Below, piece by piece: positions 8,140 to 45,580 of a stretch of 52,749 nt of DNA. This DNA is from Paludibacteraceae bacterium (lineage in GTDB: Bacteria; Bacteroidota; Bacteroidia; Bacteroidales; Paludibacteraceae). How positions within the stretch are numbered: the first letter of the stretch is position 1; each line of letters begins with the position of its first letter. The translations under genes were made by a program, and so were the position numbers. The stretch spans positions 1-52,749 of the forward strand of contig JAFPNK010000019.1 in assembly GCA_017401985.1 (NCBI GenBank), written 5' to 3'. The notes below the pieces were generated by a model, which made no database searches, was not told the DNA's origin, and worked only from the letters and a program-made list of their open reading frames with translations.

Positions 8140-8174
8140 TTTTTTGGACCATTTTGGGACATTTTGGACTAAAA
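8140..8174 (+). repeat. 10-base-period element, second copy
   Basis: Units GGACCATTTT, GGGACATTTT and GGACTAAAAA (8146-8175) preceded by a T run. The 35 bases match 5235-5269 with one mismatch. A third, degenerate version can be seen near 3251-3286. This copy occupies the place where a -33 element would be expected for the gene at 8213 (a TATATTTG is at 8196-8203). Confidence 0.75.
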
Positions 8175-9423: not shown

Positions 9424-12400
9424 TTATTGCAACAGATATTTATGTCCGTTTTGGATCACCACGCCGCGGTAGGAAGCGTTGACTTGTTGACCGAGGATGT
9501 TATACATCGGTGCATTGAAGTCCAGTTGCGGAGCAGCTGTCTCGACCTCGTCAATCGCTTGCGCTGCGCAGTCCACAGCCACTGCATCTTTGGCGGTAGC
9601 GTCCCAGCCGAAGCATGTGTTCTCGTCCACGAGTATATCGCTGGATTGCACGCTACCGTTGTTCCAGATGATATACATGGTCTTGTACTGCGGGTCGAAG
9701 GTGTAGTAGTACGCTCCGGCGGCGTTGACCTGCGTCAGCGTCTTACCCGGCCAAGCGCCCATGACAGGTGTCTGCGCGCCGTCTGCCGTCCACGCGTAGA
9801 GGTTCACTTTCTTCCAACTGGGTTCTTTGAACGTCACGGTGATCGGTTCAGCCTGCGGTGCCTTGTAGGTATAAACGGCAGTCACTATCTCCGTGGTCTG
9901 ATTACCTGCTACAGCCATCGCGCGCACCTCGGTAGTGGCTTTGAAATTGAGCGTGACGGGGTTGGTGGTGGCAGCAGTCGAAGCCGTTGTCGGGTTGGTG
10001 CCGTTGGTGGTGTAGTAGATGGTCGGAGTAGTTCCTTCCGGTGCACCTACGGCGGTGATGGTCACGTCGAGACCGGCTACGTTGTCACGGAAGATAGAGG
10101 TCTCCGGACTGAGCACTACACTGAACGGCACTGTGATACGACCGCACGCTTCGTCTAACTCTTCGCAACCGTTCTTCCACAAGTAGCATACATCGCAGTC
10201 GGTGGTAAGGTCACCGGTCTGAATGCCTTTGCCTTTGTTGTTGATTACGAAATTCGGAGCGGTAGCAGCGGCAGGGAACTGATAGGTGTACCATCCGTCG
10301 GTACCCAGCGACATTTTCTGTCCGGGCCATCCGCCTGTGCTGGTTCCGTCACCCCAGGTGTGGATATAGACATCACCCGTCCAGGTGTCATCATGCGCAA
10401 AGCGCACTACGATCGGCGTGGTCTGCGGCTCTTTGTAGGTGTAGGTAGCCTCCATCACAGCCGATGACTGACCGTTGAGCACTGCTATCGCTTTGACGGT
10501 CGTCGTAGCGCTGACGGTGAACGGAGCGGTATAAGCGGTGGACGCTGCCGTCGGTTCGGTTCCGTCCGTGGTGTAATAGATAACCGGTGTGCCGGACAGT
10601 GCGTCTGCTTTGAGCGTGACGGTGAACGTAGCGGTGGTGAACTTCTGCGACGGAGTCATCATCAGACGCGGCGTCTCAGGGGTCGTGGTCTGGTAGTACA
10701 TAGCGAAGTTACTGCCCTTGTAAGCCAACGAGTAACCGCTTGGTGCGGTGGCAAAACCGCTGTTCGGACCGAGCAAGAGACGAATCGAACCCTTGGTACC
10801 GGTGATAGTAGCTTTGTAGTAACCGTTTCCTGCGCTCTCATCGGAGATGACGGACTCGGAGTGAACACCGGTGATCTGACGCGCCATGACCATCTTGCTG
10901 ATCGCGCTTTGGTACTTCACCCAATGCGGCCAGAAGACACACGGAACACCCGGACGCGAGAGGATATAGGCATTGGCAGCCAGCACGCGGTCTTTGTTAT
11001 AATCCGCCATGGAGTTACCGCAACCGCCTATCTCGTCTTGGTTATCACGTCCGCCTTGGCAACCGAAATAGGTATCATGACTATCCACGAAGGTCACGGC
11101 GTAACGACCGTCACCTGTACCGGACAGACCGGCGTTTTTGCACTTGTTGTAATCGCCATCCGCGATACCTTGAATAGCCGTGTATTTGCAACTGAAATCG
11201 AACACGGTCGTGTTCCAACCGCAGTCGTTCAGATACGATTTGACAGCACCTGCTTCACCGTTCCAGAACTCGCATACGGAGAAGTAGTTCGCCGCTGCAG
11301 AGTTGTACATATCGATATAACGGCCTTTGAAGCCCTGTGCGTAGTCGTAACGCCAACCGTCAAAACCGATCTCGTTCTTCATCCAGCGCAGGTACGCTTT
11401 CATCATGGCCTGCACGCGAGTGTCGGCATGTGCCCAGTCACGAGCGGAGGAGTAGTTATCTTGTGCATTATAACCACCGTCATCGATACCCGTGGCAGCT
11501 CCGTTGCAGTTCATATCCTCCGTTTGGAAGTTCACCTCATCGGTGCGGCAAATCCAGGAAGCCTCCGGCGTGAAGGTGCCGTACGGACTGAAATACTGGG
11601 TGTAGAAATCGCACCAAGACGATTTACATCCGGCGTGGTTGATGACGATGTCAGCGATCACTTTGGTGTTGGCGGCATGCATACGGTCGATGAATTCCAC
11701 CAACTCCACTTTCGAACCCCACGCGGAGTTCTGGTTGCTGTACTGGGTCTGGTGATAACCCGTACCTCCTTCGGATTTGCCGGAGGGCGGTAACCAAACC
11801 ATATCGAAATACATACCTATCTCACCGCTGTGCTTGAGCAGGGTGGACCATTTGGTGTCGCCTAACTTGGTAGTACCGCTGATGGTCACGTTACCCGGTG
11901 CATCATCGCCGTATGAATCGTAATAGAAAGCCTGCAGCATCACATCCGGACAACGCTCCGGAACGGACTTGTCGTACGACGGGCGCTCTTCAATCGTTTC
12001 TCCCGGATCGACAGGTTGCGTACCGCCGCAGTCATCTCCTTCGCCGATATAGAGGATGTTGTCATTGTACATCATCTTCACGTAGATGTGATAACATCCG
12101 GCTACGTTACAGGTGATCTTTCCGGCTGTCTTACCTCCGGAGAAATTAGCGTACGCACCGTAGGGTTCGAAATCTTCTACCCATTTGGCATCACAACTGC
12201 GGTTCAGCAGCAGGAACTGATCGCCCTGTGCCAGCTGTATCTTCGCCAGATACTGCACACGGCCTTGCGTATCGTTCTCGCCGGTCGGTTCAGCCGCAAA
12301 GAGGGCCGTGTCGTTCACTAAGATGCCGTAAGGACCATCTTGACAGTTGGAGGTAGTGCCGCCACCTTCGCTGCCGCCACCTTCGCTGCCGCCTCCGCTG

Positions 12401-12924: not shown

Positions 12925-14373
12925 ATGGAACCGAAAGCAGTATTTGATATCTTTGCGCAGATCAATCAGATTCCTCGTCCGTCTAAGCACGAGGAGCAGA
13001 TCAGCCGCTGGTTGCAGTCTTTCGCAGCCGAACATGGGATAGAGTGCGTGGCAGACGCCGCGATGAATGTCATTATGCGCGTGGCGGCAACGCCCGGATA
13101 CGAGGAGCACGAAGGCGTGATCCTGCAGGCGCACATGGACATGGTGTGTGAGAAGAACGGCGATGTGGAGCACGATTTCATGCGTGATCCTATTCAGACT
13201 TATGTGGACGGTGATTTTCTCAAGGCCAAAGGAACGACCCTCGGTGCGGATGACGGAATCGGTATCGCGATGGCACTCGCGGCTATCACCGATAAACAAC
13301 TGCCGCACCCGGCTATCGAGTGCCTGTTCACCGTGGACGAAGAGACCGGTCTGACCGGCGCTATGAAACTGCAGGACGGTGTGCTGAAGTCTAAACGACT
13401 GATCAATATCGACTCGGAGGATGACGGTCAGATCTTCATCGGCTGTGCCGGAGGCGTGGACACCTTAGCTCGTATGAAATACGAGCCGGTTAAAGTTGAA
13501 AGTTTAAAGTTGAAAGTTGAAAGTTTATTGCCGGTACGTCTGTCCGTAACGGGTCTGACGGGTGGTCATTCGGGCGATGATATCAACAAAGGTCGTGCGA
13601 ACGCCAACCAGTTAATCGTATGGTTCCTTGCGCGTATCTGGCCGCAGACACAGATGCAGCTGGCGCGTATTCAAGGCGGTAACCTGCGTAATGCGATTGC
13701 CCGCGAAGCGGAAGCGGTTATCGTTATCCCGATGGCCTTCAAGGAGGATCTCCGCGTGGCATGGAACCACTACGTAGCGCAGATGGAGAGCGTGTTCGGC
13801 GAGGTGGAGAAAGAGATGCGTATGGAGTTGGAGACCTGCGACATGCCGGAGACGATTATTCCGACTGAGAAAGCCTACCGTCTGGTGATGGCGCTGTGCG
13901 AGTGTCCGCACGGTATAATCGCTATGAGCAAAGAGATGCCGGGACTGGTGGAGACATCCACTAACCTCGCGTCGATTAAGATGAAAGAAGGCTATATCGA
14001 AGTGAATACTTCGCAGCGTTCGTCCATTGAGTCGTCGAAGCATCATCTCAAATGGGCGGTTGAGCAGGCTTTGGCAATGGCGTGCGACGAAGTGACGCAC
14101 GGTGACGGTTACCCGGGTTGGGCGCCGAACCCCAAGTCTGAACTGCTCGAGACGGTGAAGAAAGCGTATACGGATCTGTTTAAGGCCGAACCCCAAGTGC
14201 TGGCTATTCATGCAGGACTGGAGTGCGGATTGTTCCTGGAGAAATATCCATACCTCGATATGGTTTCTATTGGCCCGCAGATGTACGGTGTGCACTCGCC
14301 GCAAGAGCGCCTCTCTATTTCTTCGACCGAGCGCTGCTATCGTTGGTTGTGCCAAACATTGAAGACGCTGTAA
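12925..14373 (+). CDS. pepD: Cytosolic nonspecific dipeptidase (aminoacyl-histidine dipeptidase, M20C)
   Basis: A 482-residue metallo-dipeptidase that splits a broad range of dipeptides, including carnosine-like ones, in the cytoplasm. The M20C metal and catalytic motifs are visible: AHMDMVCE (about residue 70), GADDGIG (about 115), DEETGLTGA (about 142), GGHSGDDI, NLASI and the final GLECG and YGVHSPQERLSI. No signal peptide is present. The start is ATG 12925; the TTG at 12898 lies in the -7 box. Residues about 190-202 (VKVESLKLKVESLL) are encoded by a 7-base array at 13492-13526, located in a surface-loop position between the metal-binding and dimerisation parts. It is the first gene of a run with the CCA-adding-type enzyme (9 bases away) and parE. 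Confidence 0.93.
   Translation: MEPKAVFDIFAQINQIPRPSKHEEQISRWLQSFAAEHGIECVADAAMNVIMRVAATPGYEEHEGVILQAHMDMVCEKNGDVEHDFMRDPIQTYVDGDFLKAKGTTLGADDGIGIAMALAAITDKQLPHPAIECLFTVDEETGLTGAMKLQDGVLKSKRLINIDSEDDGQIFIGCAGGVDTLARMKYEPVKVESLKLKVESLLPVRLSVTGLTGGHSGDDINKGRANANQLIVWFLARIWPQTQMQLARIQGGNLRNAIAREAEAVIVIPMAFKEDLRVAWNHYVAQMESVFGEVEKEMRMELETCDMPETIIPTEKAYRLVMALCECPHGIIAMSKEMPGLVETSTNLASIKMKEGYIEVNTSQRSSIESSKHHLKWAVEQALAMACDEVTHGDGYPGWAPNPKSELLETVKKAYTDLFKAEPQVLAIHAGLECGLFLEKYPYLDMVSIGPQMYGVHSPQERLSISSTERCYRWLCQTLKTL
13492..13526 (+). repeat. 7-base array inside pepD
   Basis: Five units: AAAGTTG, AAAGTTT, AAAGTTG, AAAGTTG, AAAGTTT. They are read through in frame as alternating lysine, valine, glutamate, serine and leucine. 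Confidence 0.9.
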
Positions 14374-14382
14374 GAGCTACGA

Positions 14383-15822
14383 ATGCAGGTGAATGACCCG
14401 AAAATAGAGAACCCGGTGCTGCGGATGGTCGGCGAGGAAGCCGACCGTCTGGGCTTGGAGTGTTATGTCATTGGCGGATGGGTGCGTGACCTGTTTCTGC
14501 ATCGCCCGTCGGATGACATCGATGTGGTAGTGGTCGGTTCGGGTATCACCCTGGCGGAAGCGGTAGCTAAGCGGCTGGGGAAAGGTGCACACCTGTCGGT
14601 GTTCAAGACGTACGGCACGGCACAAGTGAAACGCGGTGAACTCGAACTGGAGTTCGTTGGGGCACGGCGAGAGAGTTATCAGCACGACAGTCGGAATCCG
14701 ATAGTAGAGGACGGTACGTTAGAGGAAGACCAGAACAGGCGGGATTTTACGATTAATGCGATGGCCATTTGTCTAAATAATGGTGAAAGGTTAAAGGTGA
14801 AAGGTGAAAGGGTTCTCCGGTACGGAGAACTGTTGGATCCGTTTGACGGAATGGGCGATCTGGAGCGTTGCATCATTCGTACGCCGTTGGATCCGGATAT
14901 CACGTTCAGCGATGACCCGTTACGTATGATGCGGGCGATACGGTTTGCTACCCAATTGGGTTTCTTCCTGGACGGCGAGACCTTCGATGCCATCGCTCGT
15001 AACAAAGAGCGCATCGGTATCATCACCAAGGAGCGGATCGCAGACGAACTGAATAAGATCATGCTTAGCCGTCGTCCTTCGGAAGGTTGGATACTGCTGG
15101 ATAAGACCGGTCTGCTGCCGCTGATCTTCCCGGAACTGGAAACGCTCAAAGGCGTGGAGGTGAAGGAAGGACGCGGACATAAGGATGTGTTCTATCACAC
15201 GCTGCAGGTGCTGGATAACGTGGCCGCGTCTTCGGATAACCTTTGGCTTCGCTGGGCAGCGCTGCTGCACGATATAGGCAAACCCAAGAGTAAGCAATGG
15301 GATCCGCAGGCCGGATGGACGTTCCGTAACCACAATTACATAGGTGCGAAGATGGTGCCGAAGATCTTCGCGAAGATGAAGTTACCGCTCAACGAGAAGA
15401 TGGAGTACGTGCGTAAGATGGTGGACCTGCATATGCGGCCGATTAACCTGATAGAGGACACCGTGACGGACTCGGCCGTTCGGCGCTTGCTCTTCGAAGC
15501 GGGAGATGATGTGGAGGACTTGATGCTGCTCTGCGATGCGGACATCACCAGCCGCAACGAACAGAAGAAAGCACGGTATCATCAGAATTACCAACTGGTG
15601 CGGCAGAAGATGGTGGAACTGGAGGAACGCGACCGCATTCGTAATTTCCAACCGCCGGTAGATGGTATGGAGATCATGGAGATGTTCCATCTCGAACCCT
15701 GCTCGCTGGTGGGTGAACTCAAGTCCGCTATCAAAGATGCGATTCTCGATGGCGTGATACCCAATGACCACGAGGCGGCAAAACAATTTGTTATTGAATT
15801 ATGGCAGAAGAAAACGAAATAA
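14383..15822 (+). CDS. cca: tRNA CCA-adding-type nucleotidyltransferase with HD domain
   Basis: A 479-residue class II nucleotidyltransferase of the poly(A) polymerase/CCA family. The head shows [12 protein letters not shown] with metal-binding D45 and D47 in DDIDVVV, the [10 protein letters not shown] and [10 protein letters not shown] motifs that hold ATP/CTP, and the RNA-binding [10 protein letters not shown] and [16 protein letters not shown] segments. The second half has an HD phosphohydrolase motif (LLHDIGKP, about residue 296). It adds or repairs the CCA end of tRNA; a poly(A) polymerase role cannot be excluded. Residues about 134-142 come from a 7-base array (14782-14809). The gene starts 9 bases after pepD and its end overlaps parE by 22 bases. 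Confidence 0.87.
14782..14809 (+). repeat. 7-base array inside the cca gene
   Basis: Units GGTGAAA, GGTTAAA, GGTGAAA, GGTGAAA stand at a 7-base step and run into GGGTTCT. They are read in frame as [10 protein letters not shown]. Confidence 0.85.
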
Positions 15823-17720
15823 ATTTGAATGCCGTGGACTACGGCGAGGAGAACATTATTCACCTCGATGACATGGAGCATATTCGGCGTCGTCCGGGTA
15901 TGTATATCGGTAAGTTGGGTGACGGCAGTCATTCCGATGACGGTATCTATGTGCTCATCAAAGAGAGTATCGATAACTCGATTGATGAGTACCGCATGGG
16001 TGAAGGTAAGATGATAGAGGTGGATGTGCAGGACGGCCGTGTGCGTGTTCGTGACTACGGACGCGGTATTCCTCTGGGCAAACTGGTGGAAGTGGTGAGC
16101 GTGCTCAATACCGGAGGTAAGTATGACAGCAAGGCCTTCAAGAAATCCGTCGGTCTGAACGGTGTCGGTACCAAAGCCGTCAATGCCTTGTCCTCTTTCT
16201 TCGCTGTGGAGTCGTATCGTGAAGGCAAGATGCGTCGTGCGGAGTTTGCACAGGGTAAGTTAACCGGCGATACGGGCATTCAGGATTATAACGGGTCGGA
16301 GAAACGCGGTACGATCATTGAGTTCGTGCCCGATGACAGCAAAGGCTTGTTTGAGAACTACCATTTCCGCGACGATTATATAGAGGAGCTGCTGCGTAAC
16401 TATGCGTACCTCAATACCGGTCTCACGCTGGTGTACAACGGCAAGAAATTCGTGTCCAAGAACGGACTGCTGGATCTGCTGACGGAGAACATGACGGAGA
16501 CACCGCTGTATCCGATTATTCATCTGAAGGGCGAAGATATCGAGATCGCGCTGACGCATACGGACCAGAACGGCGATGAGTATTACTCGTTCGTTAATGG
16601 TCAGCACACGATTCAAGGCGGAACGCATCAGGCGGCATACCGTGAGGCGATCGGACGCACCATCAAGGAGTTCTTCAATAAGAATCAGGAACTGGCGGAT
16701 ATTCGTAACGGTGTGGTAGGAGCCATCTCCATCAATGTGGAGGAACCGGTGTTCGAGAGCCAGACGAAAGTGAAACTGGGTTCGCGTGACATGAGCCCGA
16801 CAGGTGGACTGAGCGTTAATAAGTTCGTGAACGATTTCGTTAAGCAGCAACTGGATAACTACCTGCACAAGAACCCCGAGACTGCGGAGATCATGCTGCA
16901 GAAGATTCAGGACAGCGAGAAAGAGCGTAAGGCGATTGCTGCTGTGTCCAAGGGCGCGCGTGAACGAGCGAAGAAGAACCTGGTGAACAACCCCAAACTG
17001 CGTGACTGCCAGGTTCACCTGAACGATGCCAAACCGGTTAAGAGTGCCAAAGATGCGGATGACGATCTGCGCTTGGAGAGTTCAATCTTCATCACCGAGG
17101 GTCTGTCTGCTTCGGGTTCCATCACCAAGAGCCGTGACGTGCGTACCCAGGCGGTGTTCTCGCTGCGCGGTAAACCGCTCAACAGTTACGGTCTGAGCAA
17201 ATCGGTGGTGTATGAGAACGAGGAGTTCAATTGTCTGCAGTCGGCACTCAATATCGAAGACGGTCTGGATGAGTTGCGATACAACAAGGTGATCATCGCT
17301 ACCGATGCCGATGTGGACGGTATGCACATTCGTCTGCTGATGCTCACGTTCTTCCTGCAGTTCTTCCCCGATCTGGTGAAGAAAGGGCATGTCTATATTC
17401 TGCAGACCCCGCTCTTCCGTGTGAAGGATAAGAATCAGATTATCTATTGCTATTCCGAAGAGGAACGTCAGAAAGCGCTCAATAAGATCAAGAATCCGGA
17501 GATCACCCGATTCAAAGGTCTTGGAGAGATCTCGCCGGATGAGTTCAAGGGTTTCATTGGTCAGGGTATTCGTTTGGACCAGGTGACGCTGCGTAAGGAA
17601 GATGCAGTGAACGAACTGCTTGCTTATTACATGGGTAAGAACACCACCGAGCGTCAGCAGTTCATCATTGATAACCTGGTGATCGAAGAAGACCGTGTCG
17701 AAGAGGAGTTTGAAATTTGA
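15801..17720 (+). CDS. parE: DNA topoisomerase IV subunit B
   Basis: A 639-residue type IIA topoisomerase ATPase subunit that decatenates daughter chromosomes together with ParC. The GHKL ATPase shows [21 protein letters not shown], the DYGRGIPLG lid region and [14 protein letters not shown]. The TOPRIM domain has EGLSASGS (about residue 433) and the metal site [14 protein letters not shown] (about 501). The length and the absence of the GyrB-specific insertion suit ParE of Bacteroidetes. It overlaps the cca gene by 22 bases. The 3' end (17709-17720) lies in a 7-base repeat array that continues into the next gene. parC is not in the window. Confidence 0.93.
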
Positions 17721-17743
17721 GATTTGAGATTTTAGATTTGTGC
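17709..17743 (+). repeat. 7-base array spanning the parE stop and next start
   Basis: TTTGAAA, TTTGAGA, TTTGAGA, TTTTAGA, TTTGTGC at a 7-base step. The parE TGA stop (17718-17720) lies in it, and the last unit supplies the GTG start of the next gene at 17740. Confidence 0.85.
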
Positions 17744-31659: not shown

Positions 31660-31715
31660 ATTCTTTCATTCATTCACTCATTAACTCTTTAACTCTTTCA
31701 TTCTCTCACTCGCTT
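31660..31715 (-). repeat. 8-base array across the dipeptidase/glycogen synthase junction
   Basis: Units ATTCTTTC, ATTCATTC, ACTCATTA, ACTCTTTA, ACTCTTTC, ATTCTCTC, ACTCGCTT follow at an 8-base step, covering the last codons and stop of the glycogen synthase gene and the leader of the dipeptidase gene. Boundaries may be off by one base. Confidence 0.75.
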
Positions 31716-33222
31716 TGCGGAGTGCAATGGCGTACGCTTGGCGGTAGTACTTGAAGAAATGCTTCCAGTCGGCTTTCTTCGCTACTGCTTCCGCCTCCTT
31801 GCGTGCGCGGGCTTTATCCTCTTTCGACAACCGGTCGAAGCGCAGCAAGTCGTCTGCTATGTGTTCCGCCACTTGGTCGAAGTTAGAGTCATTGCGTTCA
31901 ATCACCACTACACCGTACTGGTCTTTCTGTTGCGCTGCCCATGCGCCGAAACCGGCTAACGAAGTGGTGACGGTCGGTACGTGGAACGCACAGGACTCTA
32001 AAGGGGTGTATCCCCAGGGTTCGTAGTACGAAGGGAAGACCGTTACGTCCATACCGATCAGCAAGTCGTAATAGGTCTTACCGAACAGCGGATCGTGTCC
32101 GTCCAGGTAATAGGGAACGAACACGGCGCTCACGCGACCTTTGCGTGCCGGAGCGCGGTCGAGGTACGGAATCATCACGAATGCGATCACCTCGCGCTCC
32201 AACTGGTTGCTGTGGTAGATCTTCTGTGCCAACTTATCCAAGGCAGAAGCGAACACATCAATACCTTTGTTCTTCCACTCCTGTCGTCCGGAGATGCACA
32301 CAAACAGGGCATTCTCCGGCACCACGCCTCCGAGTTGTTCGCCTGCCACTTTGCGTAAGAGTGCCCGTGCTTCCGCGCGTTTCTCGTCAAACGCTTTACC
32401 TTTGGGCACGAAAGTGGGTTCGAATCCGTTCGGCGTCACGATATCCACCGGTTGATCGAGCAGCTGTTTGCATTCGCGCGCGGTGATGTCACTCACGGTC
32501 GTGAAACAATCCGCATGATGCGCAGCCTGTTTCTCTACCGAGTGCTTGGACACCATATTCAGTTCGTACGCCATCTGGTCGCCGTTGTACCCTTCGAAAT
32601 AATCGTACAGCGGTTTGCCGTTTCCGGCTATCGAACGACCGATACCCGTTGCGTGTGTGGTGAACAGCGTAGCGATCTGCGGACAGTGGTCCTGCAAGTA
32701 GAAGATGGAGAATGCCGTCTGCCACTCGTTGGCATGCATGCAGACACTAGGCAGACTAGTTGTCCTAGGCTTCCTAGGCTGACTAGTTAAATAGTTGTAC
32801 AGCGATTCCATCACCATTCCCGCGGCGTAACCGAACAGACAGGACTCGTCGTAGTCGCCGTAAGCGGCGTGGCTCTGTACTTGGAACTTATCCCACGCCC
32901 ACGCGTAAATCGCATCTTTCTTCGGCCATAACGCATCGAACTTAAGCAGGATAGCCATCGGTTCTCCCGGCACTTTCCATCGTCCGATACGAATAGGTAT
33001 GTCTTTTAACTCTCCACTCTTAACTCTCCACCCTTTAAGAAGCGATTTGTCTTCCTTAAAGTAGATATCACTGTGTTCTCCGAAATCAGGGCCGAAGAAG
33101 AACACTTTGTCCGGATGCTCGGCTTGCATCGATGCCGCACGGGTGCTCAGTACCGCATAGATACCACCTACGCGGTTACACACTTCCCATGAGGTCTCAA
33201 AAATATAATCAGGTTGTAACAT
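31681..33222 (-). CDS. Glycogen synthase, GT3 (eukaryote-like) type
   Basis: A 513-residue glycosyltransferase. The start FETSWEVCNRVGGIYAVLSTRA closely follows the pattern of GT3 glycogen synthases of animals and fungi (E-W-E-V-x-N-x-V-G-G-I-Y), not the bacterial GT5 (KTGGL) type. Further family features are THATGIGR, YFEGYNGDQ, FTTVSDITARECKQLL, DIVTPNGFEP, FVCISGRQEWKNKGIDVF and the donor-binding FPSYYEPWGYTPLESCAFHVPTVTTSLAGFG. It would extend alpha-1,4 glucan from UDP- or ADP-glucose in the cytoplasm. Two repeat tracts are translated in it: a 7-base array (33003-33037, WRVKSGELKD) and a CTAG array (32747-32786, QPRKPRTTSLP). The ATG at 33222 is preferred over the TTG at 33228. Confidence 0.88.
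   Translation of the reverse strand: MLQPDYIFETSWEVCNRVGGIYAVLSTRAASMQAEHPDKVFFFGPDFGEHSDIYFKEDKSLLKGWRVKSGELKDIPIRIGRWKVPGEPMAILLKFDALWPKKDAIYAWAWDKFQVQSHAAYGDYDESCLFGYAAGMVMESLYNYLTSQPRKPRTTSLPSVCMHANEWQTAFSIFYLQDHCPQIATLFTTHATGIGRSIAGNGKPLYDYFEGYNGDQMAYELNMVSKHSVEKQAAHHADCFTTVSDITARECKQLLDQPVDIVTPNGFEPTFVPKGKAFDEKRAEARALLRKVAGEQLGGVVPENALFVCISGRQEWKNKGIDVFASALDKLAQKIYHSNQLEREVIAFVMIPYLDRAPARKGRVSAVFVPYYLDGHDPLFGKTYYDLLIGMDVTVFPSYYEPWGYTPLESCAFHVPTVTTSLAGFGAWAAQQKDQYGVVVIERNDSNFDQVAEHIADDLLRFDRLSKEDKARARKEAEAVAKKADWKHFFKYYRQAYAIALRKASERMKELKS
32747..32786 (-). repeat. 9-base CTAG array inside the glycogen synthase gene
   Basis: CTAG occurs at 32747, 32756, 32765, 32774 and 32783, exactly every nine bases, each within ACTAGG, ACTAGT or CCTAGG. 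On the coding (minus) strand the codons split as xCT AGx, giving repeated P/T-R/S pairs. Confidence 0.95.
33003..33037 (-). repeat. 7-base array inside the glycogen synthase gene
   Basis: On the plus strand CTTTTAA, CTCTCCA, CTCTTAA, CTCTCCA, then CCCTTTA. The same CTCTTAA/CTCTCCA alternation appears in ileS at 29126. Confidence 0.85.
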
Positions 33223-33231
33223 ATTCAATCT

Positions 33232-37375: not shown

Positions 37376-38159
37376 GTTAGTACAAATATTTTCTTCGCGT
37401 CGCACGTGGGCATGGCCGTATATCCTGTTCCTGGGATTGTTCGTGGTGCTCCCGCTGATTTTAGTGGGTGTGTATGCGCTGACGGATATTGACGGTAATT
37501 TTACGTTACGTAACTTTGCGAAGTTCTTCACGCATAGCGAGGCGATACAGACCTTCTTCTATTCGGTGATGATAGCGGTGTTCAATACCGTCATCTGCCT
37601 GCTCATCGGTTATCCGGCGGCGTATATCATGGCGCAAGCGGATTTCAAAACGCCGAAAGTGATGGCGATGCTGTTTATCTTGCCTATGTGGATCAATTTC
37701 CTGCTGCGAACCGTGGCTACGGTGGAGTTGTTCAACATGTGCGGTCTGCCTTTAGGCGAAGGCGCGTTGCTGTTCGGTTTGTGTTACGACTACCTGCCGT
37801 TCATGATCTATCCGATTTACAACACGCTGCAGAAAATGGATAACTCGCTGGTGGAAGCGGCGCAAGACTTAGGTGCCAACCGCTGGCAGAGTTTCTGGAA
37901 AGTGATCGTGCCGATGAGTATGCCCGGCGTGTATAGCGGTATCGTGATGGTGTTCATGCCGACCGTCAGTACCTTCGCTATCGCCGAACTGCTGACGCAT
38001 AATAATATCAAACTGTTCGGTAGTCTCATTCAGGATTATATCACCACGACGGATCTGCTGAACTACGGTGCCGTGCTCAGTATGGTACTGCTTATTATCA
38101 TCGGTCTGACGTCGTTCTTCGGCGATCATGACAGTAAAGAGGAAGGAGGGCTGGTATGA
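37368..38159 (+). CDS. potB: Spermidine/putrescine ABC transporter permease PotB
   Basis: A 263-residue inner-membrane permease with six transmembrane segments. The cytoplasmic EAA loop, which contacts PotA, is seen as [27 protein letters not shown]. The start overlaps the potA end by 8 bases and the stop overlaps the potC start (ATGATGA). Together with PotC it forms the polyamine pore. Confidence 0.93.
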
Positions 38160-39559
38160 TGAGAGACCGCTACGCTGTAAGACCGGCTATGCCTGTAGGA
38201 CCGCTACGCTGTAAGACCGGCTACGCCTGTAGGATAATACTCGCATTTATCCTCTCCTTATTCCTTACCCCTGCTTTTGCGCAGTCGAACTTGACGTACA
38301 CGGTGAAGGTCGGTACGACGGGTGAAGTGAAGGTGCTGCAGGAGTTCCCGGAGAGCTACTCGGCGGAGAAAGTGAATATAAGTTTAGGAGAACTAGTCGA
38401 CCTAGGAAACCTAGACGGCCTAGATTTTGCCTTTGCGAACGAAGGTACGGAAGCCCTGCGTGCATGGGGTGACAGTGTGTACGGATATACGGATGAAGCG
38501 GATGTGCAGTGGAGTGTATGGCGAAGCCGCAAAGAGAGTAAGAACCGTCAGCAGAACGTGCTGATGAAGAACGGCCGCGATGCGTTTGAGCAGTATCTGC
38601 ATCAGACGCTGGACGTGCAACGCAGTCGCGGTTGGATCTGGTGGGTGTTCGCCGGTGTGATAGGTCTGGCAGTAGCCGTGTATGCGTTCTTCCTGATACG
38701 CAAACGTAAGGCGGAGAAGCATTTGTCGAGTGTGGAGCAGGAGACCCTTCGTCGCAATCGAATGGGCCAACGCAGGCATTATATATCGCAGGCGTACCTG
38801 TGGACGCTGCTGCTGGTGCTGTACGCACCGATTGCGCTGATAGCCGTGTTCTCGTTCACGGAGAGTAAGATCTTAGGTAACTGGACCGGATTCTCCTTCG
38901 GGCTGTACGCCAACCTGTTTACCGGCAAAGCGGATGCGGGATTGAACAGCGCCATCGGTTATACGCTGCTCATTGCGTTAGTGGCGGCAGTATGCTCCAC
39001 CATATTGGGCACGTTGGCTGCTATTGGTATCTATAACATGCGTGCGCGAAGCCGTAAGATGGTTAGTCTGCTTAACTCCGTGCCGATGATCAACCCGGAT
39101 ATCATCACCGGTATATCGCTCTTCCTGCTGTTCGTGGCGTTGGGCATGAGTCAGGGTCTGGCCACGGTGTGCATCGCGCACGTGGTGTTCTGTACCCCGT
39201 ACGTGGTGCTGAGCGTGCTGCCGCGACTGAGTCGCATGAACCCCAACACCTACGAGGCCGCGCTGGATTTAGGTGCCACACCGGCACAGGCGCTGCGAAT
39301 GGTGATGCTGCCGGAGTTATGGCCGGGTATGCTAAGCGGATTCATCTTGGCACTCACGCTGTCCGTAGATGATTTCGGTGTCACCTTCTTCACCAAAGGA
39401 AGCGGAGGACTGGAGACGCTCAGTACGTTTATCTATTCCGATGCCCGCAAAGGTGGTTTGACGCCTGAGTTACGTCCGCTGTTCACCATCATTCTGCTGG
39501 TGATGCTCACGGCATTGATCATCATCAATGTGCGAGACCGAATGAAAAAAGAGAAGTAA
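38156..39559 (+). CDS. potC: PotC permease with an extra N-terminal secreted domain
   Basis: A 467-residue protein; normal PotC is near 260. Residues about 205-467 are a PotC permease (six helices, EAA loop as TYEAALDLGATPAQALRMVMLPELWPG). The first about 200 residues are extra: a repeat-encoded n-region (RDRYAVRPAMPVG then CKTGYACR), a signal-peptide core (IILAFILSLFLTPAFAQ), a soluble part of about 120 residues with unknown fold, and an additional membrane helix (WWVFAGVIGLAVAVYAFFLI) with a basic tail. The topology would put the extra domain outside. The 34-base repeat (38165-38232) precedes the signal core, and a CTAG array (38393-38423) is in the soluble part. The ATG at 38189, created by a C-to-T difference in the first repeat copy, is an alternative start. 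It overlaps potB by 4 bases. Confidence 0.85.
   Translation: MMRDRYAVRPAMPVGPLRCKTGYACRIILAFILSLFLTPAFAQSNLTYTVKVGTTGEVKVLQEFPESYSAEKVNISLGELVDLGNLDGLDFAFANEGTEALRAWGDSVYGYTDEADVQWSVWRSRKESKNRQQNVLMKNGRDAFEQYLHQTLDVQRSRGWIWWVFAGVIGLAVAVYAFFLIRKRKAEKHLSSVEQETLRRNRMGQRRHYISQAYLWTLLLVLYAPIALIAVFSFTESKILGNWTGFSFGLYANLFTGKADAGLNSAIGYTLLIALVAAVCSTILGTLAAIGIYNMRARSRKMVSLLNSVPMINPDIITGISLFLLFVALGMSQGLATVCIAHVVFCTPYVVLSVLPRLSRMNPNTYEAALDLGATPAQALRMVMLPELWPGMLSGFILALTLSVDDFGVTFFTKGSGGLETLSTFIYSDARKGGLTPELRPLFTIILLVMLTALIIINVRDRMKKEK
38165..38232 (+). repeat. 34-base repeat, two tandem copies inside the potC start
   Basis: Copies at 38165-38198 and 38199-38232 differ by one base (CTATGCC against CTACGCC) and the second is identical to 8768-8801. 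Each is a GACCGCTACGCTGTAA unit plus a GACCGGCTACGCCTGTAG unit. Two copies make 68 bases, and the reading frame passes through them without a stop. Confidence 0.95.
38393..38423 (+). repeat. 9-base CTAG array inside potC
   Basis: CTAG at 38393, 38402, 38411 and 38420, with a degenerate TTAG nine bases earlier (38384). It is read as LVD, LGN, LDG, LDF-type triplets in frame CTA Gxx. Confidence 0.95.
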
Positions 39560-39589: not shown

Positions 39590-40834
39590 ATGAAAAAGAT
39601 TTCAACTTTCATTTTGGCTTTAGTAGCCATCGTAATGAGTTCTTGCGGCGGTACCGACCGTGCGCATCAACTGAAAGTGCTCAACTGGGCGGACTATATT
39701 GACGAGCAAGTCAAGGCCGATTTTGAGCAGTGGTATTTTGAGCAGACCGGCGAGAAAGTGGAGTTGGTGTATGAGATGTTCGACATCAACGAGACCGCGC
39801 TGACGAAGATTGAAGTAGGCCACGAGGACTACGATGTGTTCTGCCCGTCGGAGTATATCATCGAGCGCATGTTGAAAAAAGACCTGCTGATTCCAATTCA
39901 GAAAGACAGTATTCCGGACAGCATCTATTATTTCAACAACATCTCGCCGTTCGTGCTGGATAAATTCCAACAGATGTCTCCGAGCGAGGATGTGAAAGTG
40001 AGCGATTACACAGCCGGCTATATGTGGGGAACCACCGGTTTCATCTACAATCCGCAGTACGTCGATCGCGAGGAGTTGACCAGTTGGGCAGCTATCCTCA
40101 ATCCGAAGTTCGAGAACCGCATTCTGATGAAAGATGCGTTCCGCGATGTATATTCGGTATTGGTTCTGTACGCTTTCGCTGATCAGATTGAAGCCGGCGA
40201 AGTGGATCGTGACGAACTGGTTCGTAACATCACCCCGGAGCGCGTGGAGGCGGTTAAACAGGTATTGCTGCAAGCCAAGAAGCAGATTAGCGGTTGGGAA
40301 GTGGACTTCGGTAAAGAGGAGATGACCAAAGGTAAAACATGGTTGAACCTCAGCTGGTCCGGTGATGCGCAGTTCGCTATCGAAGAGGCTTCGGAAATGG
40401 GCGTGATGCTTGATTATATCGTTCCGCAAGAGGGTTCGAACGTATGGTTCGACGGTTGGGTGATCCCGAAGTATGCGAAGAACGTGAAGGCTGCTACCTA
40501 TTTCATCGACTATATGTGCAAGGCACAGAACGCTTTGGCGAACATGACTGCCATCGGTTATGTGTCGTGTGCAGGTGGTGAGAAAGCCGCTCCGGTTATT
40601 CTCGCTGCGCAGAACGATGAAGAAGCATGGCCGGAGACCGTGGACGCCAGCTATTTCTTCGGTGAGGAACCGATCGTAGTGGACGGTGACACGTTGGATA
40701 CGCATGCGCTGCACCTCAATCCGGTTTACTATGCAGACAAGAGCACGATCGACCGCTGCGCACTGATGCACGATGCCGGTGACGCACAAGAGATGCTTCT
40801 TGAGATGTGGAACGAAATTAAATTAGCACGATGA
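39590..40834 (+). CDS. potD: Polyamine-binding lipoprotein PotD
   Basis: A 414-residue extracytoplasmic binding protein. The lipobox SSCG puts the acylated cysteine near residue 19. It shows LKVLNWADYIDEQ and the periplasmic-binding fold stretches YDVFCPSEYIIERMLKKDLL, AGYMWGTTGFIYNP and MLDYIVPQEGSNVWFDGWVIPK. It captures spermidine or putrescine for PotBC. It follows potC after 30 bases and its ATGA stop overlaps the TPR gene, so all belong to one operon. Confidence 0.93.
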   Translation: MKKISTFILALVAIVMSSCGGTDRAHQLKVLNWADYIDEQVKADFEQWYFEQTGEKVELVYEMFDINETALTKIEVGHEDYDVFCPSEYIIERMLKKDLLIPIQKDSIPDSIYYFNNISPFVLDKFQQMSPSEDVKVSDYTAGYMWGTTGFIYNPQYVDREELTSWAAILNPKFENRILMKDAFRDVYSVLVLYAFADQIEAGEVDRDELVRNITPERVEAVKQVLLQAKKQISGWEVDFGKEEMTKGKTWLNLSWSGDAQFAIEEASEMGVMLDYIVPQEGSNVWFDGWVIPKYAKNVKAATYFIDYMCKAQNALANMTAIGYVSCAGGEKAAPVILAAQNDEEAWPETVDASYFFGEEPIVVDGDTLDTHALHLNPVYYADKSTIDRCALMHDAGDAQEMLLEMWNEIKLAR

Positions 40835-43779
40835 GACTAAACATTAAACTAGGCATACTAGGTGTTCTAGGTTTCCTAGGCGTCCTAGTCACTCCTGCTA
40901 ATGCGCAGACCTCCGAGATGGAAGAGCGCTACAACGCGTTAGCGGAGCGCTTTGAGGTGCGCGACAAGCTGTTGATGCGCGATCTGAAGGCGTATCTGCA
41001 GGCCTACCCGTACACCACGTTTGCCGATGAGGTGAACTTCATGCAAGCGGTGCTGTACACGGAGAAGTCCAGTTTCAAGCAGAGTATCAAACTTTTTGAG
41101 AACATCGACCGCAAGGCGCTCACTCGGCCGCATCAATTGGATTACTCGTTCTACCGCGGCTATAACTTCCTGATGATGGAGGAGTACCGCACGGCGGCTG
41201 TCTATTTCCATGTGTTGTCCAAATCGGAGAACCGCTATACGGTGCGCGCAAAGTACTACTATGCCTACTGTATGTACATGCAGGGCGAGTATGACAAGGC
41301 GTTGCCGTACTTCACGGAACTGGAGAACGACCCGACCTATTCCAAGACGGTGCCGTATTATCTGACGCAAATATACTACGCCAAAGGGGAATACGAAGAG
41401 GCGGAGCAACGTGCTTTGGCGCTGTTGCAAGCTAATCCCGAGAGTAGCAATAACACCGAGTTGCATCGTCTGCTGGGTGAGATATACTACTACAAAGACG
41501 ATTATCGTCAGTCCGTCAGCCATTTCGCGCAATACGAGCGTGGTGCAACGGCGAACAAAGTGGAGTTGGTACGCACGGATATGTATATGTTAGGTGCAGC
41601 CAATTATGAACTGGGCGCTTACAACGAGGCGGTTAGGTACCTCAAGAAAGTGAAGCAGCAGAACGACTCTCTGTCGGAGGCTTCGTGCCTGCTGTTAGGC
41701 CATTCGTACGTAGCGCTTGAGCAACCCGAGCAGGCGAAACTCTCGTATCAGGCTGCGGCGGCGTATAAACTGACGCCTGCGGTGACGGAGGAGGCGTGGT
41801 ACAACTACACGCTCTGCACCTATCAGTCGTCCAGCGCGCTGGGTGAATCGGTACGGGCGTTCAATGAGTTCTTGACGAAGTTCCCCAACTCGAAATACGA
41901 GAACAAGGTCTATCAGTTGTTATCGGACGCGCTGATGCGCTCGAAGAACTACGCGGCGGCTATCGAGACACTCGATGCTATTCCTAACCCCTCCGCTAAG
42001 ATGCTGCAGACTAAGCAGTACCTGCGTTACCAGTTAGGTGCCGATTGTTTCCTGCAGGGCAAACTGCAGCAGTCTATCGACTGGACTACGGAGGTGATTA
42101 ACCATGCTTCGGAGTCGGATCAATACACGGCAGAAGCGTATTACCTGCGTGCTGAGGCGGCGTACCGCTTGCGCAATTATGTGGCGTGTGAGGCGGACCT
42201 CAACCGCTTCTTCTCCCATCCGTCAGCCAAACGGTCGGAGAACTACACCATCGCTAAGTATCTGAAAGGTTACACGGCGTTCTCGCAAGGCAAATACGAG
42301 GCGGCACGGGAGGCTTTCTCTTCCTACATAGACGGTGCGCTGGCTACGGAGGCTACTTATGCCGATGCACTGAACCGAATAGGTGACTGCTATTTCAATG
42401 CCCGCGAATTCAGCCGTGCCATCTCGTACTACACCCAGGTAAGTAACATCAATGCCTCCGGAGCGGACTACGCGCTGTTCCAGAAAGGATACGCGTTGGG
42501 CTTGCAGCATAAATATGCCGATAAGATCACGGTGCTTAAGGAACTGATTCGTCGTTACCCGCGTTCGGACTATGCCGATGACGGTACGTACGAGATCGCC
42601 CGTGCGCAACTCCAACAGGAGGACGAGCGTGGTGCTATCTTGACATATGAGCAGTTACTGGCTGTTTATCCGCATTCGACGCTGGCTAAAAAGGCTTCGC
42701 TCGAGCGCGCGATGTTGTACCGCAACCTGGGACAGAACGACCAGTCTATTGCTGCGTATCGTGAGACGATTGAGAAATATCCGGCTACCGATGAGGCCTA
42801 TGCTGCGTTGGACGCCCTTCAGGCGCTGTACGTGGAGTTAGGTCGCGTGGACGAGTATCTGGAGTTCACCAAGACGCTCGCGCGTGTTAATATGAATGTG
42901 TCCACGCAAGAGGACAGTCTGATCTACGCTTCGGCGGAGATTCAGTACATGCAGGCTTCGTATCAAAAGGCCGCAGTGGCGTTGAACAATTATATCACGC
43001 AGTTCTGTGCCGGTGGCCGTTATTGCACCACGGCGCGGTATTATCTGGCGGATTCGTATTATCGTCTCGGTAAGACCTCGGAGGCCTTAGCGCAATACCT
43101 GGTACTGGCGGAGATGAATGCTAATCCGTATCAGGAGGAAGCAGCTATCCGCGTAGCGGAGATATGCTACGACAAGGCGGATTATAACTGTGCGTTGGAG
43201 GCTTTCTATCGCATGCATAGTCTGGCATCGAGCCGCGAGAACACCACGATTGCCCGTTTGGGTATCTTGCGTTGCACGCAGGCACTAGGTCGTCATCAGG
43301 CGGCTATCGATATAGCGGATCAGATCCTGGCCGACCTGCCGGTAAGCGATGAGACCAAAGCGGAAGCGCTGTACGGTCGTGCGAAAGCGAACGTGGCCTT
43401 GGGCCAGTGGCTCAAGGCGCAACCCGATCTGGCAGCGCTGGCTACCGATGTACGTACGGCACAAGGCGCGGAAGCGAAATATCTGTTGGCGCAGAGCTAT
43501 TACGAACTGCAGTTATTGGATGAGTCGGAACAGGAGGTGATGTCTTTCACCCGCATGAACACCCAGCAGCAGTACTGGTTAGCGCGCGCACTGATCCTGC
43601 TTAGTGACATCAACCGCGAACGGGGTGAACTGTTCCAAGCACGTCAGTACCTGCTCGTGCTGCAGCAGAACTACACCATCACCGGAGACGACATACCGGC
43701 GCTCATTGCTGCACGCATCGCACAACTGGATCAATTGGAACAACCTGAAGTAAGAGAGGAGGTTGAAGATGAAGAATAA
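40831..43779 (+). CDS. Large tetratricopeptide-repeat periplasmic protein
   Basis: A 982-residue secreted protein. The signal peptide is built largely from a 9-base CTAG array (LGI LGV LGF LGV LV, residues 7-20) and ends ANAQ. The remainder is a chain of TPR units, many with the Y-x-x-G/A and A-x-x-Y pattern (GEYDKALPYFTELE, GEYEEAEQRALALLQANP, YRNLGQNDQSIAAYRETIEKYP). The style resembles Bacteroidetes TPR proteins encoded next to an outer-membrane beta-barrel, suggesting a periplasmic or outer-membrane-attached scaffold. It overlaps potD by 4 bases and the barrel gene by 11. Its link to polyamine transport is only positional. Confidence 0.85.
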   Translation: MRLNIKLGILGVLGFLGVLVTPANAQTSEMEERYNALAERFEVRDKLLMRDLKAYLQAYPYTTFADEVNFMQAVLYTEKSSFKQSIKLFENIDRKALTRPHQLDYSFYRGYNFLMMEEYRTAAVYFHVLSKSENRYTVRAKYYYAYCMYMQGEYDKALPYFTELENDPTYSKTVPYYLTQIYYAKGEYEEAEQRALALLQANPESSNNTELHRLLGEIYYYKDDYRQSVSHFAQYERGATANKVELVRTDMYMLGAANYELGAYNEAVRYLKKVKQQNDSLSEASCLLLGHSYVALEQPEQAKLSYQAAAAYKLTPAVTEEAWYNYTLCTYQSSSALGESVRAFNEFLTKFPNSKYENKVYQLLSDALMRSKNYAAAIETLDAIPNPSAKMLQTKQYLRYQLGADCFLQGKLQQSIDWTTEVINHASESDQYTAEAYYLRAEAAYRLRNYVACEADLNRFFSHPSAKRSENYTIAKYLKGYTAFSQGKYEAAREAFSSYIDGALATEATYADALNRIGDCYFNAREFSRAISYYTQVSNINASGADYALFQKGYALGLQHKYADKITVLKELIRRYPRSDYADDGTYEIARAQLQQEDERGAILTYEQLLAVYPHSTLAKKASLERAMLYRNLGQNDQSIAAYRETIEKYPATDEAYAALDALQALYVELGRVDEYLEFTKTLARVNMNVSTQEDSLIYASAEIQYMQASYQKAAVALNNYITQFCAGGRYCTTARYYLADSYYRLGKTSEALAQYLVLAEMNANPYQEEAAIRVAEICYDKADYNCALEAFYRMHSLASSRENTTIARLGILRCTQALGRHQAAIDIADQILADLPVSDETKAEALYGRAKANVALGQWLKAQPDLAALATDVRTAQGAEAKYLLAQSYYELQLLDESEQEVMSFTRMNTQQQYWLARALILLSDINRERGELFQARQYLLVLQQNYTITGDDIPALIAARIAQLDQLEQPEVREEVEDEE
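40849..40888 (+). repeat. 9-base CTAG array encoding the TPR protein signal peptide
   Basis: CTAG at 40849, 40858, 40867, 40876 and 40885, exactly nine bases apart, in reading frame CTA Gxx xxx, giving leucine-glycine-hydrophobic triplets that serve as the hydrophobic core. Confidence 0.95.
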
Positions 43780-45580
43780 ATATTTCGACATTACGTCATT
43801 ACGTTATTACGTTATTACGATAGCGCTATTCATAAGCGCCGCCTCTTTCGCGCAAGAGGACAGCACGCTGAACCGCAGCGTGACGGTAGAGCGTGATTTC
43901 CAACCGGTTATTCAGGCGGCCGGCAAAGTGGCTACCAAGCCGGCTGTGGTGGAGACCACCATCGAACCGGTAGAGGTGGAGTATTCGGATTATACGGCTA
44001 CGGTACAGACCGACCCGACGGTGGATCCCTTGGCATCGCAGATAACGCGTTTTGCACCGGGACAACGCTATAACGGGTATATACGTGGCGGTTTAGGCCA
44101 CCCGAACACCCTGTTCGATTTCGGGTATCGTCTGGACGACGGTAAGAATTCCATTTTGGATGTCTATGCCCATCATCATGCAGAGTGGGGACTGGCTACG
44201 CTCAGTAAGACCAAAGTCGGACTCAATTTTACGCATACGTTCAGCACCGCAGACCTGTATTTCGGTGTGAATGGCGGGAATATATTCTACAACAAGTACG
44301 GCCATTTCTACGACTACAGCTTCGATAACTCGAACATGTGGGCCAAGAACGATGTCGCTTATCCGAAGCCCTATTCTATTGATGCCAAGGACAAGACAAG
44401 TCTATGGACCGCTGAGGTCTATCTGGGTATCAAATCGAACGCCAAGCAGGATTTTAAATACCGCATACAAACCGGTTATGCTATTTTTGCCAAGGCCCAA
44501 GCAGTCGCAGAGCATCAGGTTCGCACCAGTGCTTCGTTCGACTGGCATGCGGAGGAACACCACGTGGGAGCGAACGTGTATGTGCAGGATAACTTCCTGC
44601 AGTTACGCGGCGCATTAGCGGCTGCTATACCGGATTCGCTCTATGGCAGTCGTCATAATTTCCGCATCGAACCGTATTATGCCTACGAAGGATCGCGCGT
44701 ACGGGTGCATGCAGGAGTGAACTTCGACATGAACCTCGGGCACGGCCATCATATTCTGTCTAAAAACGAAAACTTCAGTTTTGCTCCTTCACCGCATATT
44801 AACTTAGAGGCACAGGTGGCGAAACAGTGGCTCACTATCTACGCAGACGTGTTGGGTAGTTTCGGTTTGGGTAACCTGCAGGGTTATATGGAGGAGAACC
44901 GCTACAGTCTGATTCACGCGGGCATCCTGCATCCGTGCGAGGCCTATACGCCGGTTGATGCCGAGGTGGGATTCCATATTCGTCCTCACCGCGACCTGAT
45001 GCTGGAGCTGCACGGCGGCTATGCGTATATGATGTACGAGGATTATCTGATTGCTGCGGCTGACACAACGGCCTTCGCACCGCTGGCAGGAGTGAACCGT
45101 CTGCCGGGTGACTTCATTCACGAGCACACGCATTATCAGCGCGGCAAAGTGGGTGGTCAGATCAATTACCATTTCCGCGACATAGTACGTGTCAATTTCC
45201 ACGGTGATTATTACATCTGGTCGGGGGACACAACGGTGTATGACCGTCCGAACTGGGAAATGGGCCTGCGCATTGACGGCCGCATTGACGAGCACTGGTC
45301 GCTCTATTCGGATAATTATTTTGCAGGCAGTCGCAAAGTCCTGGCAACCGATGGCGAGCATACGCTCAAGCCGACGGTGGAACTGAACCTGGGATTGCAG
45401 TACGAGATGATGGTCGGTAAGAAAGCGAGAACCGAAGGCGTGCTTCTTCGTCCGGAACCGCAACCGAACCTCACGCTCTTCTTCCAACTCAATAACTGGT
45501 TACACCGTAAGAATGATATTTTCTACGGCTACCGCAGCCAAGGAATCAATTTCCTGCTCGGTGCTACGTACCGGTTCTAA
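43769..45580 (+). CDS. Outer-membrane beta-barrel protein
   Basis: A 603-residue protein with a signal peptide (about 1-25, AASFAQ) and a body of beta strands rich in aromatic residues, ending in INFLLGATYRF, a typical outer-membrane end strand. The early region (NRSVTVERDFQPVIQAAGKVATKP) resembles N-terminal plugs of Bacteroidetes barrels that partner TPR proteins. No TonB box is recognised. The start is ATG 43769, overlapping the TPR gene by 11 bases (the TTG at 43763 is less likely). The signal region is encoded by an 8-base array (43790-43821). A perfect 15-base-stem terminator follows. Confidence 0.8.
   Translation: MKNKYFDITSLRYYVITIALFISAASFAQEDSTLNRSVTVERDFQPVIQAAGKVATKPAVVETTIEPVEVEYSDYTATVQTDPTVDPLASQITRFAPGQRYNGYIRGGLGHPNTLFDFGYRLDDGKNSILDVYAHHHAEWGLATLSKTKVGLNFTHTFSTADLYFGVNGGNIFYNKYGHFYDYSFDNSNMWAKNDVAYPKPYSIDAKDKTSLWTAEVYLGIKSNAKQDFKYRIQTGYAIFAKAQAVAEHQVRTSASFDWHAEEHHVGANVYVQDNFLQLRGALAAAIPDSLYGSRHNFRIEPYYAYEGSRVRVHAGVNFDMNLGHGHHILSKNENFSFAPSPHINLEAQVAKQWLTIYADVLGSFGLGNLQGYMEENRYSLIHAGILHPCEAYTPVDAEVGFHIRPHRDLMLELHGGYAYMMYEDYLIAAADTTAFAPLAGVNRLPGDFIHEHTHYQRGKVGGQINYHFRDIVRVNFHGDYYIWSGDTTVYDRPNWEMGLRIDGRIDEHWSLYSDNYFAGSRKVLATDGEHTLKPTVELNLGLQYEMMVGKKARTEGVLLRPEPQPNLTLFFQLNNWLHRKNDIFYGYRSQGINFLLGATYRF
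43790..43821 (+). repeat. 8-base array in the beta-barrel signal peptide
   Basis: Four units, ATTACGTC, ATTACGTT, ATTACGTT, ATTACGAT, at an 8-base step, reading as ITSLRYYVIT. Eight is not a multiple of three, so gain or loss of one unit would shift the frame. Confidence 0.9.

Follow-up and report, generated by a model that had tools for sequence, protein, structure and literature searches.

We analyzed a 52,749-base stretch of DNA (hereafter the window; 51% G+C; contig JAFPNK010000019.1, listed as contig 81 of its assembly) from a Paludibacteraceae bacterium, whose source assembly of 1.95 Mb is 82% complete, and describe in it an element that consists of the four-base word CTAG repeated head to tail at steps of eight or nine bases. 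Arrays of this kind carry 3-10 copies of CTAG, lie both within and between genes, keep the word almost unchanged while the bases between the boxes vary, and are nearly confined to the Paludibacteraceae among the genomes sampled. The explanation that we favor, at a probability of roughly 0.4, is that these dispersed tandem boxes serve as docking sites for a CTAG-recognizing protein.

The window contains CTAG 19 times, with 14 occurrences in three nine-step arrays and 5 outside them, against whole-window expectations of about 206 (base composition) or about 83 (second-order Markov estimate). The three arrays are where the initial annotation had placed them: five boxes at 40849..40888 on the plus strand (40849, 40858, 40867, 40876, and 40885), five at 32747..32786 (no strand assigned), and four at 38393..38423 on the plus strand. 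Its statement that random spacing would not hit one register so often also held, since 1000 shuffles of the synonymous codons among the window's predicted genes (from gene calls that are crude, here and in the location counts below) gave 0 arrays of at least three boxes, against the 3 observed. The search of the host genome that it had proposed returned 28 three-box nine-step matches, which make up 13 arrays, and 14 four-box eight-step ones; GATC, the reversed word, gave 1 three-box nine-step match. The arrays appear clustered, as seen by position only, with 3 of the 13 lying within 8.2 kb (those of the window, at 32747, 38393, and 40849) and two more lying within 0.9 kb on contig 89 of the same 1.95 Mb assembly (G000; 7509 and 8321).

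The rarity of CTAG outside the arrays, as well as the presence in the same genomes of degenerate arrays of other palindromic words (AATT, GTAC, TCGA), would suit a restriction-modification system under which CTAG is restricted or methylated and hence avoided, the arrays being methylation-dependent marks or decoys. We consider this very unlikely, because CTAG is equally rare or rarer in many loci that have no nine-step arrays and because the pitch of 8-9 bases would be left unexplained.

Where the two outer boxes read CTAG, the box between them is also an exact CTAG in 210 of 230 distinct cases; 153 of these cases are intergenic, and 142 of those show the exact word. When all four-base words were scanned at steps 7-9, counting words with at least 30 cases and spacers differing at two or more sites, an exact middle box was found for CTAG in 106/117 cases at step 9 and 47/52 at step 8; the best word without overlap with CTAG, TCAG at step 7, reached 35/65. 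The bases adjoining a box are also biased, with G preceding it in 8/396 and C following it in 18/396, against 102/427 and 88/427 outside arrays. The spacers vary: among 64 distinct arrays of at least four boxes, those of neighboring units differ at 38% (step 8) or 43% (step 9) of sites, those of non-neighboring units of the same array at 45% (step 8) or 39% (step 9), and those of different arrays at 61-70%. Similarly, by eye, the array at 40849 and its counterpart in one relative (L047) differ at 0/20 core and 8/25 spacer positions, and in a second relative (L046) at 1/20 core and 9/25 spacer positions, although in this signal-peptide comparison the protein also constrains the core.

A pattern of this kind could in principle reflect chance, assembly error, or a decayed minisatellite selected by demanding an intact CTAG, given that our searches did demand exact CTAG, that the relatives are metagenome assemblies, and that the reversed control word is not always at zero (7 matches against 56 for CTAG in G175, 6 against 39 in G721, and up to 26 in another family). 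However, the core test conditions on the outer boxes only and then reads the middle one, four-box GATC matches are absent from almost all of the 200 family genomes and of the phylum samples, and the pattern recurs across assemblies of many species, so that this reading is already refuted unless all of the assemblies share an artefact. The other family in which GATC recurs is f19 (e.g., G348, G577, and G514), several genomes of which hold four-box nine-step arrays of this word, possibly as a parallel case or as a coding repeat.

The array at 40849 lies in the putative signal peptide of a TPR-repeat protein, where it encodes the hydrophobic core LGILGVLGFLGVLV, and CTAG-type signal peptides occur at the same TPR gene in 12 other loci. 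Among these peptides the pattern LGxLGxLG is conserved, as would be expected if selection acted on a leucine-rich signal peptide and CTAG were a by-product of codon use. The codons argue otherwise. In 12 of the 13 CTAG-type peptides (that of L048 was omitted for an 11-base step), the core leucine is written CTA in 50/57 cases and CTG in 7/57, counts that are non-independent because the species share ancestry; CTA makes up 1 of the 19 other leucine codons there and 3.5% of the 1426 leucine codons in the genes of the window, whereas all four glycine codons are in use after the core (14, 11, 9, and 9). Moreover, arrays in the other frame encode unrelated peptides, 57 of 90 arrays are called intergenic, and the codon-shuffled windows yield no array. 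Selection at the protein level is therefore already refuted as a general explanation, in line with the initial annotation, which had held that a peptide conserved in relatives with unrelated codons would count against a unit of DNA; relatives without the array have an unrelated peptide.

To describe where arrays lie, we surveyed the window and 192 loci (L046-L157 and L165-L244) for chains of at least three CTAG at steps 8 or 9; the loci are a non-random set, in that some share the TPR gene, some regions were picked for their arrays (including 12 of one 20-region set), and duplicates were retained. The 90 chains comprise 57 called intergenic, 19 near a gene start (signal peptides), 10 internal, and 4 C-terminal, which places 33 within genes, and two chains of L048 that are called intergenic actually sit in a signal-peptide region. 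One signal-peptide array of that locus (9463-9522) has an 11-base step among the nines and a partial duplication, with no start found reading through; this region is either a broken gene or an assembly error. Neighboring CTAG at most 20 bases apart (n = 376) are separated by 8 bases in 136 cases, by 9 in 206, and by another step in 34 (one of them 10), and the two main steps are combined within 11 of the 90 chains. The initial annotation had taken the nine-base period as the rule, but eight-step arrays proved common; they are mostly intergenic and are present in this genome too.

Location and step are related. Step 9 is shared by all 29 arrays at gene starts or in gene interiors, and step 8 is seen in 3 of the 4 at C-termini. 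Away from the extreme ends of genes, the only genic arrays found had step 9 and a frame that avoids TAG (the third frame would read CTAG as a stop). This explains the strict nine-base period in the window, which looks like a spacing of 8-9 at the DNA level filtered by coding. Gene calls put 9 of this genome's 13 nine-step arrays inside genes, where they use two frames and either strand and encode LGxLGx or PSSxPRx-like peptides. The view of these arrays as built into signal peptides stood for the one at 40849, where the signal peptide is putative, and not for the others in the window: that at 32747 falls in a loop of glycogen synthase (minus strand, other frame) and that at 38393 in the gene of an ABC permease. 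Since arrays occur in two frames, on both strands, and frequently between genes, a signal peptide is one host site among several rather than their special home, and the same facts, with CTAG kept while the spacers vary, bear out the earlier suggestion of a unit at the DNA level.

Several features of the intergenic arrays recall an element of RNA or translation, in which CUAG repeats of transcripts, near stops and starts, would either be recognized by an RNA-binding protein or halt translation in several frames. The end box supplies the TAG stop codon of the adjoining gene in 15/57 of them, many sit shortly upstream of a start codon, an eight-step array places TAG in all three frames, and the spacers are rich in purines on the gene strand. 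We think this explanation unlikely, since 10 intergenic arrays lie between converging genes, 33 of the 90 arrays lie inside genes, the word is palindromic with a roughly symmetrical preference in its flanking bases, and nine-step arrays stop one frame only. A role tied solely to start codons is excluded by the convergent-gap arrays together with others deep inside genes.

To assess the distribution of the arrays, we counted four-box matches in 200 family genomes, the window genome counted in. Nine-step arrays occur in 31 of the 200 (21 of the 35 genomes of the same genus, 2/2 of genus g9, and 8 others), with 0 to 203 matches per genome, and eight-step arrays in 20, of which 18 belong to the genus. 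Taking either step, 26/35 genus genomes and 11/165 other family genomes have a four-box array. Outside the family, in phylum samples whose sole family member is the window genome, 2/394 genomes match at step 9 and 1/295 at step 8. In G175, the listed array places are spread over its contigs. A phage origin was considered and rejected, as viral contigs hold four-box CTAG stretches, yet step 8 (75) is no commoner there than step 10 (73), counts that also provide a control on the spacing of the arrays; at least 120 stretches of step 9 were found in them, an excess over both that is presumably the effect expected of the three-base coding period.

The sites that hold arrays are permissive ones at which relatives carry other repeats. 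For the TPR signal peptide, we compared 55 rows, namely the window and 54 of 63 loci (excluded were two without an N-terminus and seven that were distant or partial), with types assigned by motif counts and then adjusted by eye: CTAG nonamers in 13, TTATTC heptamers in 11, ATTACGT octamers in 11, TTGTCC heptamers in 5, CTGTA heptamers in 3, TCTCGA repeats in 1, and a plain sequence in 11. Relatives also have GACCGC repeats in TPR signal peptides. When placed on a quick tree built from the mature TPR protein, the seven types require 23 changes (minimum 6), and the CTAG type requires 7. In three pairs (L068/L073, L086/L063, and L058/L100), the mature protein is about 99% identical (tree distance 0.007-0.012) and the signal-peptide DNA is entirely different, the exchanged segment running approximately from the upstream stop codon to the probable cleavage site with 95-99% identity over 100 bases on each side. 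Seven pairs were examined in all, these three having been picked because they differ; in the other four (L051/L055, L065/L067, L097/L056, and L069/L098), the TPR signal peptide was not replaced. Across the seven pairs, similar patches occur elsewhere, in further signal peptides, in loops, and in gaps. The tandem repeat is often not the same on the two sides, and some differing patches reflect ordinary divergence of a fast-evolving protein. CTAG has not been purged from L073, the relative with neither signal-peptide array, since 34 three-box matches remain in its genome.

Whole putative signal peptides were seen exchanged in five of the pairs (L068/L073, L086/L063, L058/L100, L069/L098, and L051/L055), with flanking 100 bases that are 83-100% identical; the TPR gene is affected and, in some pairs, so are other genes of its cluster (permease, solute-binding, and next downstream). 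Such swapping, which leaves the neighboring protein sequence nearly intact, would allow the exported proteome to change quickly, and such pairs offer a natural test of which signal-peptide features matter.

Intergenic sites behave similarly. In the gap preceding a gene that, from its sequence, we take to be kbl, read by eye in 31 loci (L245-L274 and L171, the latter known beforehand to hold an array), a CTAG array is present in 6, one of step 9 and five of step 8; elsewhere the gap is either empty or occupied by a GC-rich element or by repeats of ATTACGTN, TCTCGNN, CCTGGNNN, or heptamers, and several loci have a different gene upstream. CTAG arrays are one of several kinds of short repeat that occupy the same permissive places, and because those places hold other repeats or nothing in relatives, single arrays come and go. 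The GC-rich element (CCTCCCTTGAGGGG or similar), also seen inserted in gaps and genes elsewhere (L246, L250, L169 at 2698 and 4592, and L051 at 5946), is a further short dispersed repeat of these genomes.

This turnover is also what a self-spreading or neutral repeat would produce, by slippage at a site and template switching between sites, with CTAG kept because copying needs it, for example for re-annealing of strands. It is the main and strong rival to docking sites, and we regard it as a serious possibility, if one somewhat short of even. One eight-step array is shorter by exactly one eight-base unit in one of two sister genomes (L100/L058, by eye), orthologous sites carry different repeat families exchanged whole between near-identical flanks, and the units of an array resemble each other more than they resemble those of other arrays, with neighbors at step 8 slightly more alike than non-neighbors. 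Uniform arrays exist (e.g., that of L137, with four identical ACAGA spacers), array numbers depend strongly on the species, and other short tandem repeats abound in the same genomes: of the 509 arrays with periods of 5-20 detected in the family DNA retrieved, 301 have period 7. However, neighbors at step 9 are no more alike than non-neighbors, and the mixing of steps 8 and 9 is unlike simple slippage. The heptamer arrays, moreover, show hardly any fixed core, their longest invariant run averaging 3.04 against 2.85 when shuffled (499 arrays), and a shared copying mechanism would therefore not explain CTAG. A design of core plus spacer common to the heptamer repeats is rejected on the same figures; only the CTAG repeats join a strict core of four bases to spacers that vary and to a choice of two steps.

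The initial annotation had proposed a unit that spreads or is retained in coding DNA and whose nine-base period keeps changes in copy number in frame. Arrays are indeed absent or replaced at orthologous sites, and one has changed by a unit, but no copying event was caught; that sole unit change is in an eight-step array, and no change in length was seen at step 9. A reverse transcriptase, of a telomerase-like or a defence type, might conceivably have generated such arrays.

The reading that we prefer, a docking site, supposes a putative protein that would recognize the palindromic CTAG and bind adjacent boxes side by side at a pitch of 8-9 bases, perhaps cooperatively, in a role that would be chromosome-wide instead of gene-by-gene. 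A fixed pitch of 8-9 bases suits side-by-side dimers. Arrays within genes would be tolerated when the step is nine and the frame avoids TAG, and arrays sit in permissive places such as putative signal peptides, loops, and the gaps between a stop and the next start. In favor of this reading we count the exact middle boxes with varying spacers, the dominance of steps 8 and 9 together with their mixing within chains, the bias in adjoining bases, the use of CTA in the core of the signal peptides, the occurrence in two frames and on both strands, and the spread of array places over the contigs of G175. A broader form of this proposal, which we put forward only tentatively, is a family-wide network of CTAG arrays on which the predicted protein would stack at 8-9 bases per unit, and in which arrays would compete with other repeats and repeatedly rewrite signal peptides and loops. 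A four-letter word that the genome avoids almost everywhere else and yet keeps in arrays of exact pitch points to a DNA-reading protein, and offers a direct way to fish for it.

Several observations weigh against docking sites. Four-box arrays of either step are lacking in 9/35 genus genomes, and relatives swap whole arrays for unrelated repeats at the same sites, so that no single array site is indispensable. Units are more alike within an array than between arrays, as local copying would yield, and the rule for flanking bases is broken by arrays of G138 and by some eight-step arrays of this genome, which show GCTAG or CTAGC. In the closest pair with orthologous arrays (L100/L058; four eight-step arrays, by eye), four cores have changed and no spacer differs, so that constraint is invisible over this short term; 44,424 bases of the pair could be aligned genome-wide, and the array-by-array outcome rests on few cases. 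Core changes in a close pair with spacer changes at longer distance would fit either slow purging or renewal of arrays. The purine share on the gene strand of spacers in same-strand gaps, 0.60 for 83 four-base and 0.71 for 53 five-base spacers, suits a role at the RNA level. Finally, Trp_repressor (PF01371), the sole protein family searched for, had no match in 20/20 genomes and was detected in the Escherichia coli and Bacillus subtilis controls; half of the 20 have four-box nine-step arrays, and two of the other ten have eight-step arrays. The Trp repressor is accordingly rejected as the reader of CTAG.

Its operators are nevertheless a close likeness, having a CTAG core at 8-base tandem steps that is bound in tandem; the arrays differ in lying at many unrelated genes and in these genomes' lack of a Trp repressor match. 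Tandem boxes bound by ribbon-helix-helix proteins (the met boxes of MetJ, the ParG boxes of TP228 parH, and the omega heptads of pSM19035) also have short cores, a fixed pitch of 7-8 bases, partly free spacers, and side-by-side dimers, but are limited to a single regulatory or partition locus or to a small number of them, whereas CTAG arrays are scattered over the genome, are partly coding, and mix steps 8 and 9. Dispersed chromosome-organizing sites such as those of Noc, SlmA, and MatP resemble the arrays in numbering tens per chromosome, in and between genes, and are single longer motifs instead of rows of a four-base word. As in box arrays of binding proteins, the core of the CTAG arrays is constrained and the spacers are free also outside genes, and the pitch is 8 or 9 in 342/376 steps.

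Among repeats, the short tandemly repeated repetitive (STRR) sequences of cyanobacteria are dispersed, family-specific short tandem repeats with a fixed heptamer sequence; CTAG units have only the core in common. Compared with repeats of the STRR or TAACTGA type, a short head-to-tail unit recurs at many genome places for the CTAG core only, and the whole unit is not conserved between copies (spacer differences of 38-45% within and 61-70% between arrays). TAACTGA repeats are reported to be exact heptamers that occur in Beggiatoaceae, Cyanobacteria, and five Bacteroidetes including Paludibacter propionicigenes, and that in the main genome studied lie mostly just before start codons (PMC4679880). 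They share with CTAG arrays short direct-repeat arrays at many intergenic sites, often before a start, and a patchy distribution, and differ in being exact and mostly intergenic, where CTAG arrays have a four-base core, variable spacers, steps of 8 or 9, and genic as well as intergenic sites (PMC4679880). Among the matches listed in our literature search on CTAG arrays, heptamer repeats, and signal-peptide exchange, neither such arrays nor such exchange were described. A shared flank beyond the boxes was not noticed by eye, with no systematic flank test made for the conserved ends, hairpins, or target duplications of elements of the insertion-sequence or repetitive extragenic palindromic type.

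The hosts of the three arrays in the window are as follows. The TPR-repeat protein (40831..43779, plus strand; 982 amino acids; Pfam matches to TPR_6, TPR_16, and YfiO) is probably secreted, judging by its N-terminus. The array at 32747 falls in a variable loop of a minus-strand gene for a glycogen synthase-like glycosyltransferase (31681..33228; 515 amino acids; Pfam Glycogen_syn, 4.9e-80), where it reads as SQPRKPRTTSLPS; the loop varies in sequence and length in the 5 relatives aligned there. The array at 38393, with a degenerate TTAG box 9 bases upstream, encodes the peptide LVDLGNLDGLD in a stretch of an ABC transporter permease gene (38156..39559, plus strand; 467 amino acids; Pfam BPD_transp_1, 6.4e-12, residues 282-458) that is variable among relatives, one close pair having two different repeats there.

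A tandem repeat scan located further repeats in the window. The permease has an N-terminal extension that opens with a putative signal peptide, and this part of the gene contains 17-base repeats (38164..38231, plus strand; consensus AGACCGGCTACGCCTGTA), which are another repeat family at the same kind of site. The gene after the TPR gene starts with CATTACGT octamer repeats (43789..43819, plus strand), and CTAG arrays lie at this position in eight relatives (L063, L065-L068, L086, L088, and L101). Heptamer tandem repeats are also present in the window at 2287-2339, 4557-4587, 13492-13525, 14778-14811, and 17709-17740, several of them within genes, and ten-base TTTTGGACCA repeats at 5237-5264 and 8142-8169 border a stretch of small open reading frames at about 5.4-8.1 kb.

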